Of a stretch of DNA of 64,000 nucleotides, positions 51,511 to 56,181 are shown piece after piece; the stretch's first letter is position 1, and each line of letters starts with the position of its first letter. Position numbers and translations under genes: made by a program. The notes beneath the pieces were generated by a model. The model saw nothing but the letters and a program-made list of their open reading frames with translations. It ran no database searches and was not told the DNA's origin. The stretch is from Acidicapsa dinghuensis (GTDB lineage: Bacteria; Acidobacteriota; Terriglobia; Terriglobales; Acidobacteriaceae), in contig NZ_JAGSYH010000009.1 in the NCBI RefSeq assembly GCF_025685685.1, forward strand, positions 62,001 through 126,000, written 5' to 3'.

Positions 51511-53169
51511 ATGCCGACAACCCCTCGTTCCATCCGCCTTGGAGCCATTCTTCTCTTCTCCATACTGGCGATAGGCTCTCTTCCCGTTTGGTCGCAAGCC
51601 GGTGGAGATGCTGCAATTCCTCTGCCTCCGATGGGCTGGTCTTCCTGGAACAGCTTCTCCAACCGCATCGATTCAAAGATCGCCATGCAACAGGCGCAGG
51701 CGCTCATCAGCACAGGCATGGCCAAGCAGGGCTTTCAATTCGTAAACATCGATGAAGGCTGGTGGCTGGGCACGCGGGACTCGGAAGGCAACATCGTCGT
51801 CGAACCAACGCGATGGCCCGCCATCGCCCCCGGCGAGCACGCTGGCGATATGAGCAACATCGTTCGCTACATCCACGGGCTCGGATTGAAGGCCGGCATC
51901 TATACCGACGCCGGTAATGACGGCTGCAGCTTCTACGGCCCCGACCTCGGCCCCAAGATGCCCCATACCGGCAGCGAAGGCCATTACGAACAGGACTTTC
52001 TCCAGTTCGCAAAGTGGGGCTTCGATTACGTCAAGGTCGATTGGTGCGGCGGCAACGGCGAAAACCTCGACCCCGCGCTGCAGTACGCCGAAGTAGCGCG
52101 CGCCATTCACCGCGCCGAGGTCATCACCGGACACAAGCTCTACTACTCCATCTGCAACTGGGGAAAAGACAGCCCCTGGACATGGGCGCCCGGCATCGGC
52201 GGAGTGCAAGCCGATATCTGGCGAACCAGCGGAGATATCGTCGCCCCCATCGTCGCGGACTCCCCAAACAGCAGCCGCCGCGCGACATTGGAAGAGGTCC
52301 TGGGCAACTTCGACAAAGGCATTCATCCCGAAGCGCAGCACACCGGCTACTACAACGATCCGGACATGATGGTTCTCGGCATGCCGGGGCTTGGCGATGT
52401 TGAGAACCGGCTGCACATGACGCTATGGGCTATATCCGGCGCTCCGTTACTGGTAGGAGCCGACCTCACCAAACTCTCACCCGGCGCGCAGGCCGACCTC
52501 ACCAACTCCGAAGTCATCGCCATCGATCAGGACCCGCTTGGGCTCCAGGCGGTTTGCGTTTCTCCTCCCGATGCCAAAGTGGAAGTGTGGGTTAAGAAGC
52601 TCGCGAACACAGATCGCGGCAAACGCGCTGTTCTTCTCCTGAATCGTTCCGCAACAGAACAGCACGCGCACGTATCGTTGAGCGAACTATCGCTCGCTGC
52701 CGGCGATGCTCAGGTTCGAGATGTGTGGACCCATCGCAATCTCGACAGGCAAAGCCTAGACCAGGCCGTAGTCCCCGCACACGACGCGCTTCTGTTCATC
52801 GTTGAGGGCCGCGAACCCGAAGGGGCAGGCTACGCTCCCGCAGCAACAGCCAACGATGCCCCCGACAACCGCTTCGCCGGAAGCGCCTGGAATTTCTCTG
52901 GAGTAAAAGCTGCTGATGGACGAGCCTGGATCACTCTCAACTACTCAAATCCTGGTGACACGACAGAGCTGATGGAGCTGCGAGTCAACGGTATCCGGCA
53001 AAGCGCGATAGCCCTTCCCGCATCCAATGCCTCGCAAAATACCGTGACTCTCGAAGTCAATCTCGAAGCAGGAAACCATCCCAACCAGATCACCCTGCTC
53101 GGACAAACCGGAGGCAAGGCATCTCCCACCGCAATCAAGGTAATCGCCATCTCTGGTAGCCAGAAATAG
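51511..53169 (+). CDS. Exported glycoside hydrolase family 27 alpha-galactosidase
   Basis: The protein is 552 residues; GGAG lies 7 bases before the ATG. A signal peptide covers about residues 1-30. The GH27 barrel starts PLPPMGWSSWNSF, continues with FVNIDEGWW and LGLKAGIYTDAG, holds the catalytic nucleophile Asp in YVKVDWCGG and the acid/base Asp in WRTSGDI, then NDPDMMVLGMPG. The C-terminal ~150 residues form a beta domain that ends the fold and perhaps an extra carbohydrate-binding module. It should remove terminal alpha-galactose from oligosaccharides in the periplasm or outside the cell. Confidence 0.93.
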   Translation: MPTTPRSIRLGAILLFSILAIGSLPVWSQAGGDAAIPLPPMGWSSWNSFSNRIDSKIAMQQAQALISTGMAKQGFQFVNIDEGWWLGTRDSEGNIVVEPTRWPAIAPGEHAGDMSNIVRYIHGLGLKAGIYTDAGNDGCSFYGPDLGPKMPHTGSEGHYEQDFLQFAKWGFDYVKVDWCGGNGENLDPALQYAEVARAIHRAEVITGHKLYYSICNWGKDSPWTWAPGIGGVQADIWRTSGDIVAPIVADSPNSSRRATLEEVLGNFDKGIHPEAQHTGYYNDPDMMVLGMPGLGDVENRLHMTLWAISGAPLLVGADLTKLSPGAQADLTNSEVIAIDQDPLGLQAVCVSPPDAKVEVWVKKLANTDRGKRAVLLLNRSATEQHAHVSLSELSLAAGDAQVRDVWTHRNLDRQSLDQAVVPAHDALLFIVEGREPEGAGYAPAATANDAPDNRFAGSAWNFSGVKAADGRAWITLNYSNPGDTTELMELRVNGIRQSAIALPASNASQNTVTLEVNLEAGNHPNQITLLGQTGGKASPTAIKVIAISGSQK

Positions 53170-53183
53170 CGTCTACTCGTAGC

Positions 53184-53207
53184 CGCCACCTACCCCGGTA
53201 GATGGCG
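53184..53207 (+). terminator. Hairpin after the alpha-galactosidase gene
   Basis: CGCCACCTACC (53184-53194) and GGTAGATGGCG (53197-53207) form an 11-bp stem with one mismatch and a 2-base gap, 15 bases after the stop. No T-run follows, so the terminator role is uncertain. Confidence 0.4.
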
Positions 53208-53270
53208 CTCCAAACCTCGCCTCACTCCCACTTTCCCAAGCGCCACCGCGTGTGGAACATACCACAACAG

Positions 53271-53293
53271 GGTATAAATATATTTGACACACC
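53271..53293 (+). repeat. Left terminal inverted repeat of the IS1595-family element
   Basis: It starts GGTATAAATATATTTGACAC and ends ACC at 53293. It matches the reverse complement of the right end at 20 of 23 positions. It contains the TTGACA used as the -35 box of the transposase promoter. Confidence 0.9.
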
Positions 53294-53312
53294 ATGATTG
53301 TTTCGATAGTAT
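53284..53312 (+). promoter_or_regulatory. Transposase promoter, -35 box inside the left inverted repeat
   Basis: TTGACA (53284-53289) and TAGTAT (53307-53312) are 17 bases apart. The expected start of transcription, about 7 bases after the -10, falls on the A of the transposase ATG (53319), so the message is probably leaderless. No ribosome site exists before the ATG. Confidence 0.65.
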
Positions 53313-53318
53313 TAGTTC

Positions 53319-54308
53319 ATGGCAAAGACAGAAAAAGTTCCGCAAAGCTTGCTTGAGGCGACTCGATACTTCGCCGATCCCGACGTGTGTGTAGACTTCG
53401 TGGCTGCGATGCGTTGGCCGGATGGTGTGGAATGCCCACACTGCGGGAGCAAGCGCGTTTCGTATCTCTCTTCGCGCCGTATCTGGAAGTGCATGGCAAA
53501 AGAGTGCCATAAGCAATTCAGCGTCAAGACTCAATCTGTCTTTGAAGACTCGCCGATCTCTCTCGATAAGTGGCTTACCGCCGTGTGGCTGGTCGTCAAT
53601 TGCAAGAATGGCATTAGCTCTTACGAAATCGCACGCGACTTGAAAGTCACTCAGAAATCAGCGTGGTTTATGCTGCATCGTATTCGTCTTGCGCTGAAGA
53701 CTCAGAACTGGAGCAAGATGGGTTCCGGTGGTGGTCCCGTGGAAGTAGATGAAGCATTCATCGGGGGATCGCCTAAGAACTGGCATCTCGCAAAGCGTGC
53801 CAAGCGTGCGCGATTCAGCGAAGACAAGCCAGCGGATCATAAGACTGCCGTGGTCGGATTGCTTGACCGTGACACTCGCCAGGTACGCGCCAAAGTCATT
53901 CCCAACGTGAAGCGTGAAGTCTTGCAGGATGCCATTCTTCAGAACGTTGTAGGGACCGGCAAGGTCTACACCGATGGTTGGAAAGCCTACAGCAATCTCC
54001 CTGCGCTCGAATTCGTGCATGAGACTGTAGACCACCTGAACGAGTATGTACGCGGTGAAGTACACACCAACGGAATTGAGAATTTCTGGTCATTGCTCAA
54101 GCGCGGATTGAAAGGCACCTATGTTGCCGTCGAGCCATTTCACCTTGAGCGTTACGTCGATGAGCAGGTTTTCCGGTTCAATAATCGCGCCACTAAATAC
54201 GCGCCGATGACCGATTCAGATCGTTTCATTCTTGCCTTATCGCAGATCGCGGGAAAGCGGTTAACCTACGCGGAACTGACCGGCAAGGTGGGAGAAACGG
54301 CGGTATAA
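53319..54308 (+). CDS. IS1595-family (ISXO2-like) transposase
   Basis: The protein is 329 residues. An N-terminal zinc ribbon has CPHC (39-42) and CMAKEC (58-63). The ISXO2-like catalytic domain follows with Asp144 in VEVDEAFIGG, Asp219 in VYTDGWKAY, and HTNGIENFWSLLKRG with Asn251 and Glu254. This is the complete DD(N/E) set of the family. It catalyses cut-and-paste movement of the surrounding element using its terminal repeats. Length is normal and there is no frameshift, so it is probably active. Confidence 0.95.
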   Translation: MAKTEKVPQSLLEATRYFADPDVCVDFVAAMRWPDGVECPHCGSKRVSYLSSRRIWKCMAKECHKQFSVKTQSVFEDSPISLDKWLTAVWLVVNCKNGISSYEIARDLKVTQKSAWFMLHRIRLALKTQNWSKMGSGGGPVEVDEAFIGGSPKNWHLAKRAKRARFSEDKPADHKTAVVGLLDRDTRQVRAKVIPNVKREVLQDAILQNVVGTGKVYTDGWKAYSNLPALEFVHETVDHLNEYVRGEVHTNGIENFWSLLKRGLKGTYVAVEPFHLERYVDEQVFRFNNRATKYAPMTDSDRFILALSQIAGKRLTYAELTGKVGETAV

Positions 54309-54347
54309 CTCATTCTGGAAACCACGCCAGCAAAGGGGCAAACGCAA

Positions 54348-54548
54348 ATGACCAAGGAAGAGATTCAGAGCGTGATGTTGCAAGCGAGACTGGAAGCTGG
54401 CCTCACACAACAGGATATGGCGAACATGATGGCGACGAAGCAATCTACGATTGCGCGTATGGAATCAGGCCGGTATCCGGTGCGTTTGCTTACGCTGATG
54501 AAGTGGGCGGAAGTGACGGGCAAGCGATTAGAAATCAGGCTCGTTTAG
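54348..54548 (+). CDS. Small HTH (XRE/HigA-like) protein, IS passenger
   Basis: The protein is 66 residues with AGGGG 9 bases before the ATG. LEAGLTQQDMANMMATKQSTIARMESG is a Cro/C1-type helix-turn-helix, given here as LTQQDMANMM and QSTIARMESG. The end KWAEVTGKRLEIRLV is like HigA antitoxins, which finish with a strand after the HTH. No HigB/RelE toxin is visible next to it. It may regulate the transposase or the passenger genes. Its 3' end overlaps the convergent 46-residue gene by 14 bp. Confidence 0.8.
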   Translation: MTKEEIQSVMLQARLEAGLTQQDMANMMATKQSTIARMESGRYPVRLLTLMKWAEVTGKRLEIRLV

Positions 54549-54675
54549 AGCGCGGTTTCTTGCCCGTCTTCTCTGCATCAATCCGCTGTACCATTTCCTT
54601 TTTCGACACCTTGAGTATCGTCTTCAAAGCATCCCTGAAACGGGCGAATTCGGGATTGTTTGGCGGAGTCTTCAT
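54535..54675 (-). CDS. 46-residue basic protein (NPEFxRF type), partner of the DUF3800 gene
   Basis: It begins MKTPPNNPEFARFRDALKTI and ends in a Lys/Arg-rich tail (KTGKKPRSKRA). It starts 5 bp after the DUF3800 stop, so the two form an operon. I recall short proteins with an N-P-E-F-x-R-F start and a K-E helix (here LKVSKKEMVQRID) recurring beside DUF3800 genes and phage genes; that is memory of a pattern, not a search. AGG lies close before the ATG. It could be an antitoxin- or adaptor-like partner; nothing in the sequence proves it. Confidence 0.65.
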   Translation of the reverse strand: MKTPPNNPEFARFRDALKTILKVSKKEMVQRIDAEKTGKKPRSKRA

Positions 54676-54680
54676 GGAAC

Positions 54681-55685
54681 CTATGATAGCTCCTCGCTGT
54701 CCTCGGCGCTGAGAACCATTGGATCTATTCCAGTTGCCTCTATGTACCTCTTCCTAAACTCCTGATAAGCAGGATCATTCTCAAGGAATTCAACGAGTCG
54801 CTTGCGTTGCAAATTGACAAATGCTTCAAGCGCGAAGAGGTTGGCAAGGCGTTCGTGCGCCTCTTCTGGGCTTAACAGGTTCTGTCTTTGTAATTTCAAA
54901 AACTCACCCACTTCGCCCCTTAACACGGAACCGAACGTCAGCAAATCAAGCATCCGCATGTGCTGCGCGGGTGGCTCACAACGCAAATATCCAACGTCAT
55001 TTCGGGTTCCAATAATTCTCAAAGCTTCGCTGCGTACTTGGGTTTCCCCCTCTACGGAGAATTCTCCGGCCAATAAGTCCGCCATTTGGAGCGCTGCAAC
55101 TTCCTCGTCTTTCCCTGGGGTACATGTTCCAGCATGACGCATGTAGTCGCGAAGGAAGGGTTCTTCCTTATTCGCGTTGAAGTTCTCGATGTTGAATCGA
55201 AGGGCAGAGTGCTCGTCGAAGATGAAGTCTACCTTCTCGCCATCGGGTTGTGGCTCCATCCACTGAAAGGTCATCTTCGTTGCGGTAATAAACCCCCAAT
55301 CATATGCTTTAGCCGCACCCCGCGCATATTTTCGGGAGGCTTTGTCGATGTCGCCCAGCGCATGAGGAACAATCGCGCAGAGTCCTTGCAAGTCAAAGTT
55401 GCTAATCACGGCAGCTAGATCAAGCATCTTTTGATCGGCTTGCTCTCGATTAAATTTCCAGAATTGACCGCTCAGGCTCTGGCATTCGTAGTGTTTGAAA
55501 AATTCGATTCTCGGATGTTGATGAAGACAGTCATCCCATGCGTCCTCAATCTTTAACCACTCATCAACATGACCGACGAAGCCGCCCATGATCAGGGCCC
55601 TGTTTCGCCTTCGGTCATTTCCGCTCTCGTCGAAGAATGCTCTAAACACGGACACTAGCCTTTGCAGGCGCCGAGAGCGCGACAT
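54681..55685 (-). CDS. DUF3800 protein, IS passenger
   Basis: The protein is 334 residues from the ATG at 55685; a TTG at 55727 and GTG codons near 55650 are alternative starts, the latter with AAAGG upstream. It has the DUF3800 signatures: FFDESGND near residue 17 and a later acidic motif in EVAALQMADLLAGE, with FIFDEHSA between. Spaced acidic residues in this family suggest an RNase H-like fold and metal-dependent nuclease, which is a prediction and not shown. The C-terminal ~100 residues are helical. It is transcribed inward from the right end of the element, opposite to the transposase. Confidence 0.82.
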   Translation of the reverse strand: MSRSRRLQRLVSVFRAFFDESGNDRRRNRALIMGGFVGHVDEWLKIEDAWDDCLHQHPRIEFFKHYECQSLSGQFWKFNREQADQKMLDLAAVISNFDLQGLCAIVPHALGDIDKASRKYARGAAKAYDWGFITATKMTFQWMEPQPDGEKVDFIFDEHSALRFNIENFNANKEEPFLRDYMRHAGTCTPGKDEEVAALQMADLLAGEFSVEGETQVRSEALRIIGTRNDVGYLRCEPPAQHMRMLDLLTFGSVLRGEVGEFLKLQRQNLLSPEEAHERLANLFALEAFVNLQRKRLVEFLENDPAYQEFRKRYIEATGIDPMVLSAEDSEELS

Positions 55686-55767
55686 ACCGCATAGATGGGG
55701 AACGATACGAATAATTGGTAAATGCAATTGCTTTCATCGCTTTCCTCAGCATGCAATACATCGACTT

Positions 55768-55790
55768 GGTGCGTCAAATATATTAATGCC
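55768..55790 (-). repeat. Right terminal inverted repeat of the IS1595-family element
   Basis: Read from outside on the minus strand it starts GGCATTAATATATTTGACGC and ends ACC. Differences from the left end are at positions 3, 6 and 19. Like the left end it carries an inward-pointing TTGAC box (TTGACG). Confidence 0.9.
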
Positions 55791-55934
55791 CACAACAGGT
55801 ATAAATTCCCCGCGACCTTCCGGTGCATGCACAAACACCCGTAATTCCACGCAAAAATATCGCAAGCAAATCCACTGACTTACAGAAAACTTCGCTTGAC
55901 ATAGCCCGTCCGCCGGCATCCACCTGCGCCAGAA

Positions 55935-56099
55935 TGTTCCACGAGGAACATTCCTTCGCCGCAGCAGAAAATTGCTCCACGTAGAACACTCCAATTGCTC
56001 TACGTGGAACACTCCTCAATCAGAATCAGTTCCGCAAAATGTTCCACGTGGAACATTCTGGCGTCTTCGCGTCCAGACAAAATTGCTCCACGTGGAGCA
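55935..56099. other. Cluster of five parS-like sites (ParB binding)
   Basis: Five 16-bp palindrome-like sites occur in 165 bp: TGTTCCACGAGGAACA (55935), TGCTCCACGTAGAACA (55973), TGCTCTACGTGGAACA (55996), TGTTCCACGTGGAACA (56040) and TGCTCCACGTGGAGCA (56084). Sites 4 and 5 are perfect palindromes, extended to 20 bp by AA/TT or AT flanks. The sequence at 56040 is the form of parS recognised by chromosomal ParB proteins in many bacteria. The cluster lies behind the 3' end of the gene ending at 56182 and has no start codon within 1 kb on its left outside the IS, so a promoter operator is less likely. No parA or parB is in the window. Confidence 0.8.
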
Positions 56100-56181
56100 A
56101 TTGCAATCAGCTCCATCCAACACACACTACGGCTTGCACTGAATTAACGAAAGAGTGCGCATAATGGAAGCGGGCATCGCC

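Follow-up and report, generated by a model that had tools for sequence, protein, structure and literature searches.

A probable fixed core with exchangeable payload in an IS1595-type transposon of Acidicapsa dinghuensis

A 64,000-nucleotide stretch of the Acidicapsa dinghuensis genome (assembly GCF_025685685.1, contig NZ_JAGSYH010000009.1, positions 62,001 to 126,000; hereafter the window, numbered from its first letter) contains a 2,520-bp element of the IS1595 family of insertion sequences (IS), located at 53271–55790 between two exact copies of CACAACAG. In this study, the element was compared with its relatives, and we consider it fairly probable that this IS1595-type transposon combines a fixed core with a payload that can be exchanged, the latter here including a DUF3800 gene as defence-like cargo. 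The core would consist of two 25-bp ends (the left one holding the −35 box of the transposase promoter), the transposase gene and a second, small gene whose product (46 amino acids, aa) would be a helper or regulator. The payload would be the region from the small gene to the right end, plus a helix-turn-helix (HTH) gene wedged between the transposase gene and the small gene. Comparison of sequences establishes the boundaries and the 8-bp duplication of the element and shows that the small gene is inherited together with the transposase, that its product is under purifying selection and that cargo is replaced; whether the small protein is indeed a helper or regulator of transposition is an even question.

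Retention of the small gene and exchange of cargo

Relatives were taken as the best 80 of 218 matches from a transposase scan of genome contigs; judged by record title, they are mostly Acidobacteriota, with Cyanobacteria, Actinobacteria, Chloroflexi, Planctomycetota, Binatus and deltaproteobacterial records also represented. Inverted ends of the same type together with an 8-bp duplication were located by script at 61 of the 80 loci (at most one mismatch allowed in the duplication; count made without a shuffled control), which with the window gives 62 bounded elements of 1.8–4.7 kb, the shortest being 1,799 bp. Their terminal-repeat consensus is GGcAAtAATATACTTGACtcACcan. One of them, L038, also holds a nested transposase of another family.

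Small frames were linked across elements with differing cargo by all-against-all comparison. A first-pass profile built from 22 seeds, with the window protein excluded, detected the small gene at E < 0.01 in 64 of the 81 loci (22 of these being the seeds), and an iterated profile, which accepted matches up to E 0.5 when beside a transposase, detected it in 78 of 81; the three misses have only 29, 588 and 673 bp to the right of the transposase match. A fixed profile was then applied to 93 IS1595 transposase loci, of which 90 were drawn from a longer list of PF12762 matches in a 100-genome family sample and three were plasmid loci. At E < 0.01 the small gene was present at 41 of the 45 loci inside the clade and at none of the 48 outside it. 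Weaker out-of-clade matches were L164 (E 0.02), L253 (E 0.023) and L197 (E 0.86). The transposase profile scores of the two groups do not overlap (294 against 427), and in a FastTree phylogeny of 125 in-clade and 48 other transposases a single branch with support 99 splits the groups; the label-change count of 1 on this tree follows from groups defined by score, and the informative point is the single separating branch. The window's own genome (G000) also holds three out-of-clade IS1595-family transposases (C13:171088, C17:35519 and C12:242882), and no small gene was detected beside them at E < 0.01 (C17 gave a weak match, 0.86).

Genome searches were also started from the small-protein alignment (199, 117 and 151 genomes, partly the same), and 60 distinct loci including the window, a part of the places found, were inspected. 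An IS1595 transposase or a fragment of one accompanied 44, and eight more had a terminal repeat with at least 16/18 matches (0/60 in shuffled stretches); three had a repeat at 14–15/18, which is chance level (14 was reached by 4/60 shuffles), with both ends present in L128/L133. The small gene is therefore close to a marker of these transposons.

The identities of transposases and small proteins are correlated (Mantel r 0.46, 0/2000 permutations), and shared cargo adds nothing once the transposase is given (partial r 0.015, 295/1000). DNA comparison of nine near pairs revealed homology spanning the left end, transposase and small gene in seven while the cargo differs (L083/L085, L056/L066, L034/L035, L069/L071, L075/L089, L068/L090 and L082/L105; transposases 79–98% identical). 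In L046/L052 the homology stops with the transposase, and in L044/L046 it stops inside the small gene. Past the core, near pairs share little beyond the last 22–116 bp, with nothing detectable in L056/L066 and L044/L046; L034/L035 additionally share pieces of about 150 bp. Compared with its near twin L056, L066 holds 377 bp extra between transposase and small gene, a second cargo position that is occupied in the window by the HTH gene.

Cargo also changes repeatedly on the transposase tree. DUF3800, present in 12 of the 62 bounded elements (membership by clustering and alignment, with Pfam run on four: the window, L100, L106 and L107), requires at least 10 changes, and the 33 elements with shared cargo clusters require at least 17, both counts being tree minima obtained without a shuffled-label control. 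The initial annotation of the window, made from the sequence alone, had proposed that the HTH, DUF3800 and small NPEFxRF proteins move together as cargo. The first two fit that description; the NPEFxRF protein is the small protein, a core gene that stays through cargo swaps. Passenger contents vary among relatives, and the same four genes in conserved order without terminal repeats, which that annotation had named as a refutation, were not seen.

The small protein is under purifying selection as judged from codon comparison: the ratio of non-synonymous to synonymous substitution rates (dN/dS) was 0.10–0.36 in the eight computable pairs of ten (partly dependent, since L035, L053 and L056 were each used twice), and dS was saturated in the other two. 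Considered as cargo or as a chance frame, the small protein was rejected on its presence in 78/81 loci, the swap pairs, the contrast of 41/45 with 0/48, and dN/dS.

Possible roles of the small protein

A role in transposition is suggested for the small protein because it is attached to the transposase and appears to be a basic hairpin. Of 78 small proteins, 87% carry a net positive charge; the median isoelectric point is 10.1, and the AlphaFold2 model of the window protein has helices at residues 8–21 and 25–38 (mean predicted local distance difference test score, pLDDT, 78). Such a protein may act with the transposase or with the DNA ends as a helper or a copy-number regulator. It would also be retained in transposase-less derivatives, which would move in trans. 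Two such derivatives (L131:6434-7477 and L133:6028-7514) have IS1595-type ends around the small gene and a single cargo gene, namely a 275-aa frame in L131 and DUF3800 in L133, the latter with one mismatch in its duplication.

The small protein had no convincing match in Pfam or NCBIfam, only scattered weak ones among 62 members, the best (E 8.5e-4, two members) being to a coronavirus nucleocapsid model. No match was found below E 0.1 among PDB sequences, none in PHROGs (two members searched), and the model had no fold match in Foldseek.

Several points weigh against a core helper or regulator. Contact of the small protein with the transposase or with DNA is hypothetical. Small proteins and terminal repeats are correlated given the transposase (partial correlation 0.18, 0/1000), but the value falls to 0.06 (151/1000) once one subtype is removed; the correlation rests on one lineage because it vanishes without that subtype, and it was not used as proof of end binding. 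The acceptance rule of the iterated profile favours transposase neighbours, and some genomes of the 100-genome sample overlap the training loci. In-clade loci without a recognisable copy are L173 and L193 (1.4 kb of flank) and also L228, to which L231 is added at E 0.043, with an evident NFDQFREAMRTLLKAKP frame. Five of the 60 loci found from the small protein have neither an IS1595 transposase nor a terminal repeat. In 25 of 62 elements the small gene follows, at no more than 120 bp, a cargo gene on its own strand. In L069 the small module forms the C-terminal part of a DUF3800 protein, and in L110 that of a trypsin-like protein (PF13365); L058 was not counted as a fusion, its start codon being doubtful.

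The last two observations favour a different role, in which the small protein partners the cargo, as an antitoxin, regulator or adaptor for a toxic or defence effector, and not the transposase. The small gene is kept with cargo in the transposase-less L131 and L133, which suits a cargo partner and a trans-mobilised element alike. However, one small-protein family accompanies unrelated cargo families, elements with the same cargo do not tend to have more similar small proteins, the small protein stays with the transposase in the swap pairs, and in 10 of 62 elements the small gene has the orientation of the transposase. We therefore regard a partnership with cargo as unlikely, although it is the strongest of the alternatives.

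It is quite improbable that the element is an ordinary passenger-carrying IS (transporter IS, tIS) whose extra genes are random hitchhikers and whose small frames share no function. Passenger-bearing IS are recognised as a class in two reviews (PMC3129680, PMC7986276), but the small family is near-universal in the clade, its dN/dS is well below 1, and one branch lies between carriers and non-carriers.

The small gene is convergent with the transposase in 52 of the 62 elements, and in 34 of the 52 their stop codons share one and the same overlap. Such an arrangement would suit a conserved feature other than a protein at the 3' end of the transposase gene (an antisense RNA or a tail-to-tail terminator), with the frame a by-product; this explanation is scarcely credible, since synonymous changes dominate, the gene is on the transposase strand in the other ten elements, and it is displaced by 227–1056 bp from the transposase stop in 7 of the 52 (227 bp in the window). 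As a separate observation, the identical stop-codon overlap persists though the C-termini of transposase and small protein vary in sequence.

Structure of the window element, its target site and its cargo

The features of the element are listed in Table 1. The left end reads GGTATAAATATATTTGACACACC from 53271 and the right end, in reverse complement to 55790, reads GGCATTAATATATTTGACGCACC; the 20 matches in 23 bp reported in the initial annotation were reproduced on recounting (21 over 25 bp), and the exact 8-bp duplication, the intact transposase and the three further genes between the ends described there were likewise recovered. The assignment to a complete IS1595-family element also holds: the transposase scored 138.1 bits against DDE_Tnp_IS1595 (Pfam cut-off 27), 181.8 bits against NF033547 (cut-off 75) and 46.4 bits against the N-terminal zinc ribbon PF12760 (cut-off 25.4), the terminal inverted repeats start with GG, and the target duplication is 8 bp long. 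A simple IS has a single transposase gene, and with the HTH_3, 46-aa and DUF3800 frames besides, the window element is a passenger-bearing variant.

Table 1. Features of the IS1595-family element and its flanks in the window
Feature	Position	Strand	Evidence
Left target-site duplication, CACAACAG	53263..53270		Sequence; single copy at seven uninterrupted paralogous sites, substitution in L156
Left terminal inverted repeat, 25 bp, 21 matches to the right one	53271..53295	+	Sequence
Predicted transposase promoter: −35 TTGACA within left end, 17-bp spacer, −10 TAGTAT (53307–53312)	53284..53312	+	Sequence
IS1595-family DDE transposase, 329 aa, intact	53319..54308	+	PF12762 3.2e-40, PF12760 3.9e-12, NF033547 1.6e-53
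HTH_3 protein, 66 aa, between transposase and small gene (second cargo position)	54348..54548	+	PF01381 3.1e-10
Small basic two-helix protein, 46 aa (MKTPPNNPEFARFRDALKTILKVSKKEM...), candidate core second gene of the IS1595 clade	54535..54675	-	First-pass profile E 2.0e-13
DUF3800 protein, 348 aa, TTG start, RNase H-like fold (model), cargo	54681..55727	-	PF12686 27.6 bits, cut-off 21
Right terminal inverted repeat	55766..55790	-	Sequence
Right target-site duplication, CACAACAG	55791..55798		Sequence and uninterrupted paralogous sites
Remainder of dispersed target repeat; starts GTATAAATTCCCC, then TGTTCCACGNGGAACA-type palindromes	55799..56100		Similar stretches at many places in the same genome

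The right flank of the element is a dispersed repeat of the same genome, eight copies of which were fetched. Seven (L155–L160 and L162; 71–82% identical) cross the junction uninterrupted, reading CACAACAG (one base changed in L156) and then TATAAAT or a close variant, so that the empty junction is CGTGTGGAACATACCACAACAG-A-TATAAATTCCCC with some substitutions allowed; the eighth, L161, gave only piecemeal alignments that do not include the junction. A pattern search for empty sites gave six matches, and its reversed control gave 0. Both boundaries and the 8-bp duplication are fixed because these seven copies are uninterrupted, the empty sites being paralogous copies within the same genome and not a sister-strain allele; they supply the single CACAACAG that the initial annotation had proposed to look for. 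Its remark that the insertion site itself resembled the IS end is borne out by the empty copies, which carry the IS-end-like flank. The likeness arises because GTATAAAT is part of the target repeat and resembles the IS end by chance, and it is not general: the window scores 8/12, and the mean over 62 elements is 4.1. The target repeat at 55799–56100 and many other places in G000 carry TGYTCCACGNGGARCA palindromes, which resemble ParB-binding parS sites; they gave 48 forward and 51 reverse matches, a full palindrome being counted on both strands (reversed control 0), many of them clustered, on most contigs.

The complete window element has one copy in its genome, and similarity elsewhere is partial, at contig C4. 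That locus (L144:676-2534) is a second element of the same clade with its own ends, duplication ATAGTTTG and small gene; its 229-aa cargo differs from that of the window and contains a DIDNRLKTLFDALR motif, which we take to recall RusA-type resolvases.

The predicted transposase promoter is consistent with its relatives: TTGAC is kept in the left end of 54/62 elements, and the −10-like hexamer at a spacing of 16–18 has on average 4.04 of 6 matches (control 2.29). The right end was considered as a cargo promoter and found weak, with TTGAC in only 28/62 right ends and a mean −10 match of 3.5 (control 2.37).

The HTH protein may repress expression of the element or of its cargo. The initial annotation called it HigA-like; it matches only the generic HTH_3 family, with TIGR03070 at 29.9 bits against a cut-off of 71.65 and the other toxin–antitoxin models lower. 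No HigB-type toxin was found beside it in Pfam and NCBIfam matches, its neighbours being the IS1595 transposase and the 46-aa protein without a family.

The DUF3800 frame is on the same strand as the 46-aa frame and terminates 5 bp ahead of its start (54675/54681). Its AlphaFold2 model (pLDDT 79.9) aligned best with RNase HII (1eke; Z 10.8, root-mean-square deviation 5.4 over 177 residues), and all 13 proteins of an alignment share D33, Q214 and D217. The modelled fold with the conserved acidic residues D33 and D217 is RNase H-like, and catalysis is a prediction; the assignment leans partly on the sequence motif and the literature, because the RNase H matches of the model are only moderately above the helical-bundle rows. 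The protein may thus be an RNase H-fold nuclease retained as host-protective, defence-like cargo. With E up to 1 allowed, neither it nor the small protein matched any PADLOC model, and the transposase and HTH protein had weak generic matches only. For a DUF3800-type structured RNA, no Rfam match over threshold was obtained in 53150–56150; two sub-threshold matches belonged to other families (E 0.14 and 0.3).

The cargo of the sister elements is varied. A Pfam scan of 40 cargo frames assigned a family (E up to 0.01) to 18: DUF3800 (3), RelA_SpoT (2), AIPR (2), GmrSD, SocA_Panacea, IrrE with HTH, DUF4411, Trypsin_2, DUF6941, DUF7689, P63C, the nested transposase and, below their own cut-offs, DUF1877 and DUF4145. 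The best PADLOC matches of 60 main cargo proteins were AbiU (2e-176, two members), PD-Lambda-5_A (4e-117), PDC-S33 (9e-109, two members), HEC-06 (1e-89) and Orf5 (2e-72), whereas the best match of 60 background frames of the same loci was 4e-28 among the matches listed; this contrast compares best E-values over the best 25 of 73 and the best 25 of 51 families, and some background and + strand cargo frames are mechanical open reading frame calls that may be antisense. Because the best E-values of the cargo are far lower than those of the background, the cargo of the clade appears to lean towards defence and toxin-like genes. Apart from the clade, an IS1595 element on Methylobacterium oryzae plasmid pMOC1 (L163), with matching ends and duplication AATCGGAA, carries an annotated VapC-family toxin; cargo is therefore not confined to the small-gene clade.

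Relation to known elements and significance

Transposase plus separate, conserved helper-type genes is an organisation known from IS21 (IstA/IstB) and IS66 (TnpA/B/C). Unlike those helpers, the small protein of the window's clade is tiny, has no known domain and is usually encoded convergently with the transposase. IS with passenger genes are known as tIS, a term that reviews trace to the 2009 description of the IS1595 family (PMC3129680, PMC7986276). The window element resembles that family in its DDE_Tnp_IS1595 and zinc-ribbon domains, GG-starting ends and 8-bp duplication. In published accounts, however, IS1595 members have a single transposase gene (PMC8101967), and those of Xanthomonas and Ralstonia have one open reading frame in 1000 bp (PMC11092175), whereas here a small core gene is clade-wide and 61 of the 62 bounded elements have, in addition to the transposase, a frame of at least 120 aa (in L052 all further frames are shorter). 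An account of such a conserved second gene in IS1595 elements was not found in the literature searched, which did not cover subscription papers and ISfinder, and no paper on IS1595 together with DUF3800 was found there.

DUF3800 is described as an RNase H nuclease fold that accompanies some Cas12a2 and VI-F loci (PMC10910872, PMC12669027). The window protein scores over the Pfam cut-off and its RNase H-like model agrees with the fold described there, but it is transposon-borne and no cas gene is among the four genes of the element. Sister elements carry AbiU/AIPR, GmrSD or RelA/SpoT-like defence or toxin genes, whereas the window DUF3800 has no PADLOC match.

Clustering of frames at the 3' ends of out-of-clade transposases gave mostly apparent antisense shadows of the C-terminus, and P[FI][TS]RxxF alone looked real. 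This second small-protein type, P[FI][TS]RxxFxxLLxxA, belongs to another IS1595 lineage (L168, L192, L196, L200, L212, L218, L224, L230, L235 and L249), lying within a long frame in L230 and L235; the ends of L200 and L212 start GGTAATTATCCCTTGAC, and those of L196 are similar.

As a tentative extension, which we think possible but would not favour, the IS1595 clade may comprise interchangeable carriers of mostly single-gene immune cargo, built on a two-gene core in which the tiny basic hairpin protein, so far overlooked, controls or targets transposition in cis and in trans; transposase-less derivatives would then retain it because it renders them mobile. If this were true, the second small-protein type would make a two-gene core a principle of the whole family. 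IS1595 elements are usually described as one-gene elements, and a conserved second gene that is easily missed because it is so small would alter their annotation and views of their movement. A core that stays while the payload changes would also offer a route to new defence-like genes through inspection of the region from the small gene to the right end, where many payloads have no Pfam family (22 of the 40 scanned, at E up to 0.01).

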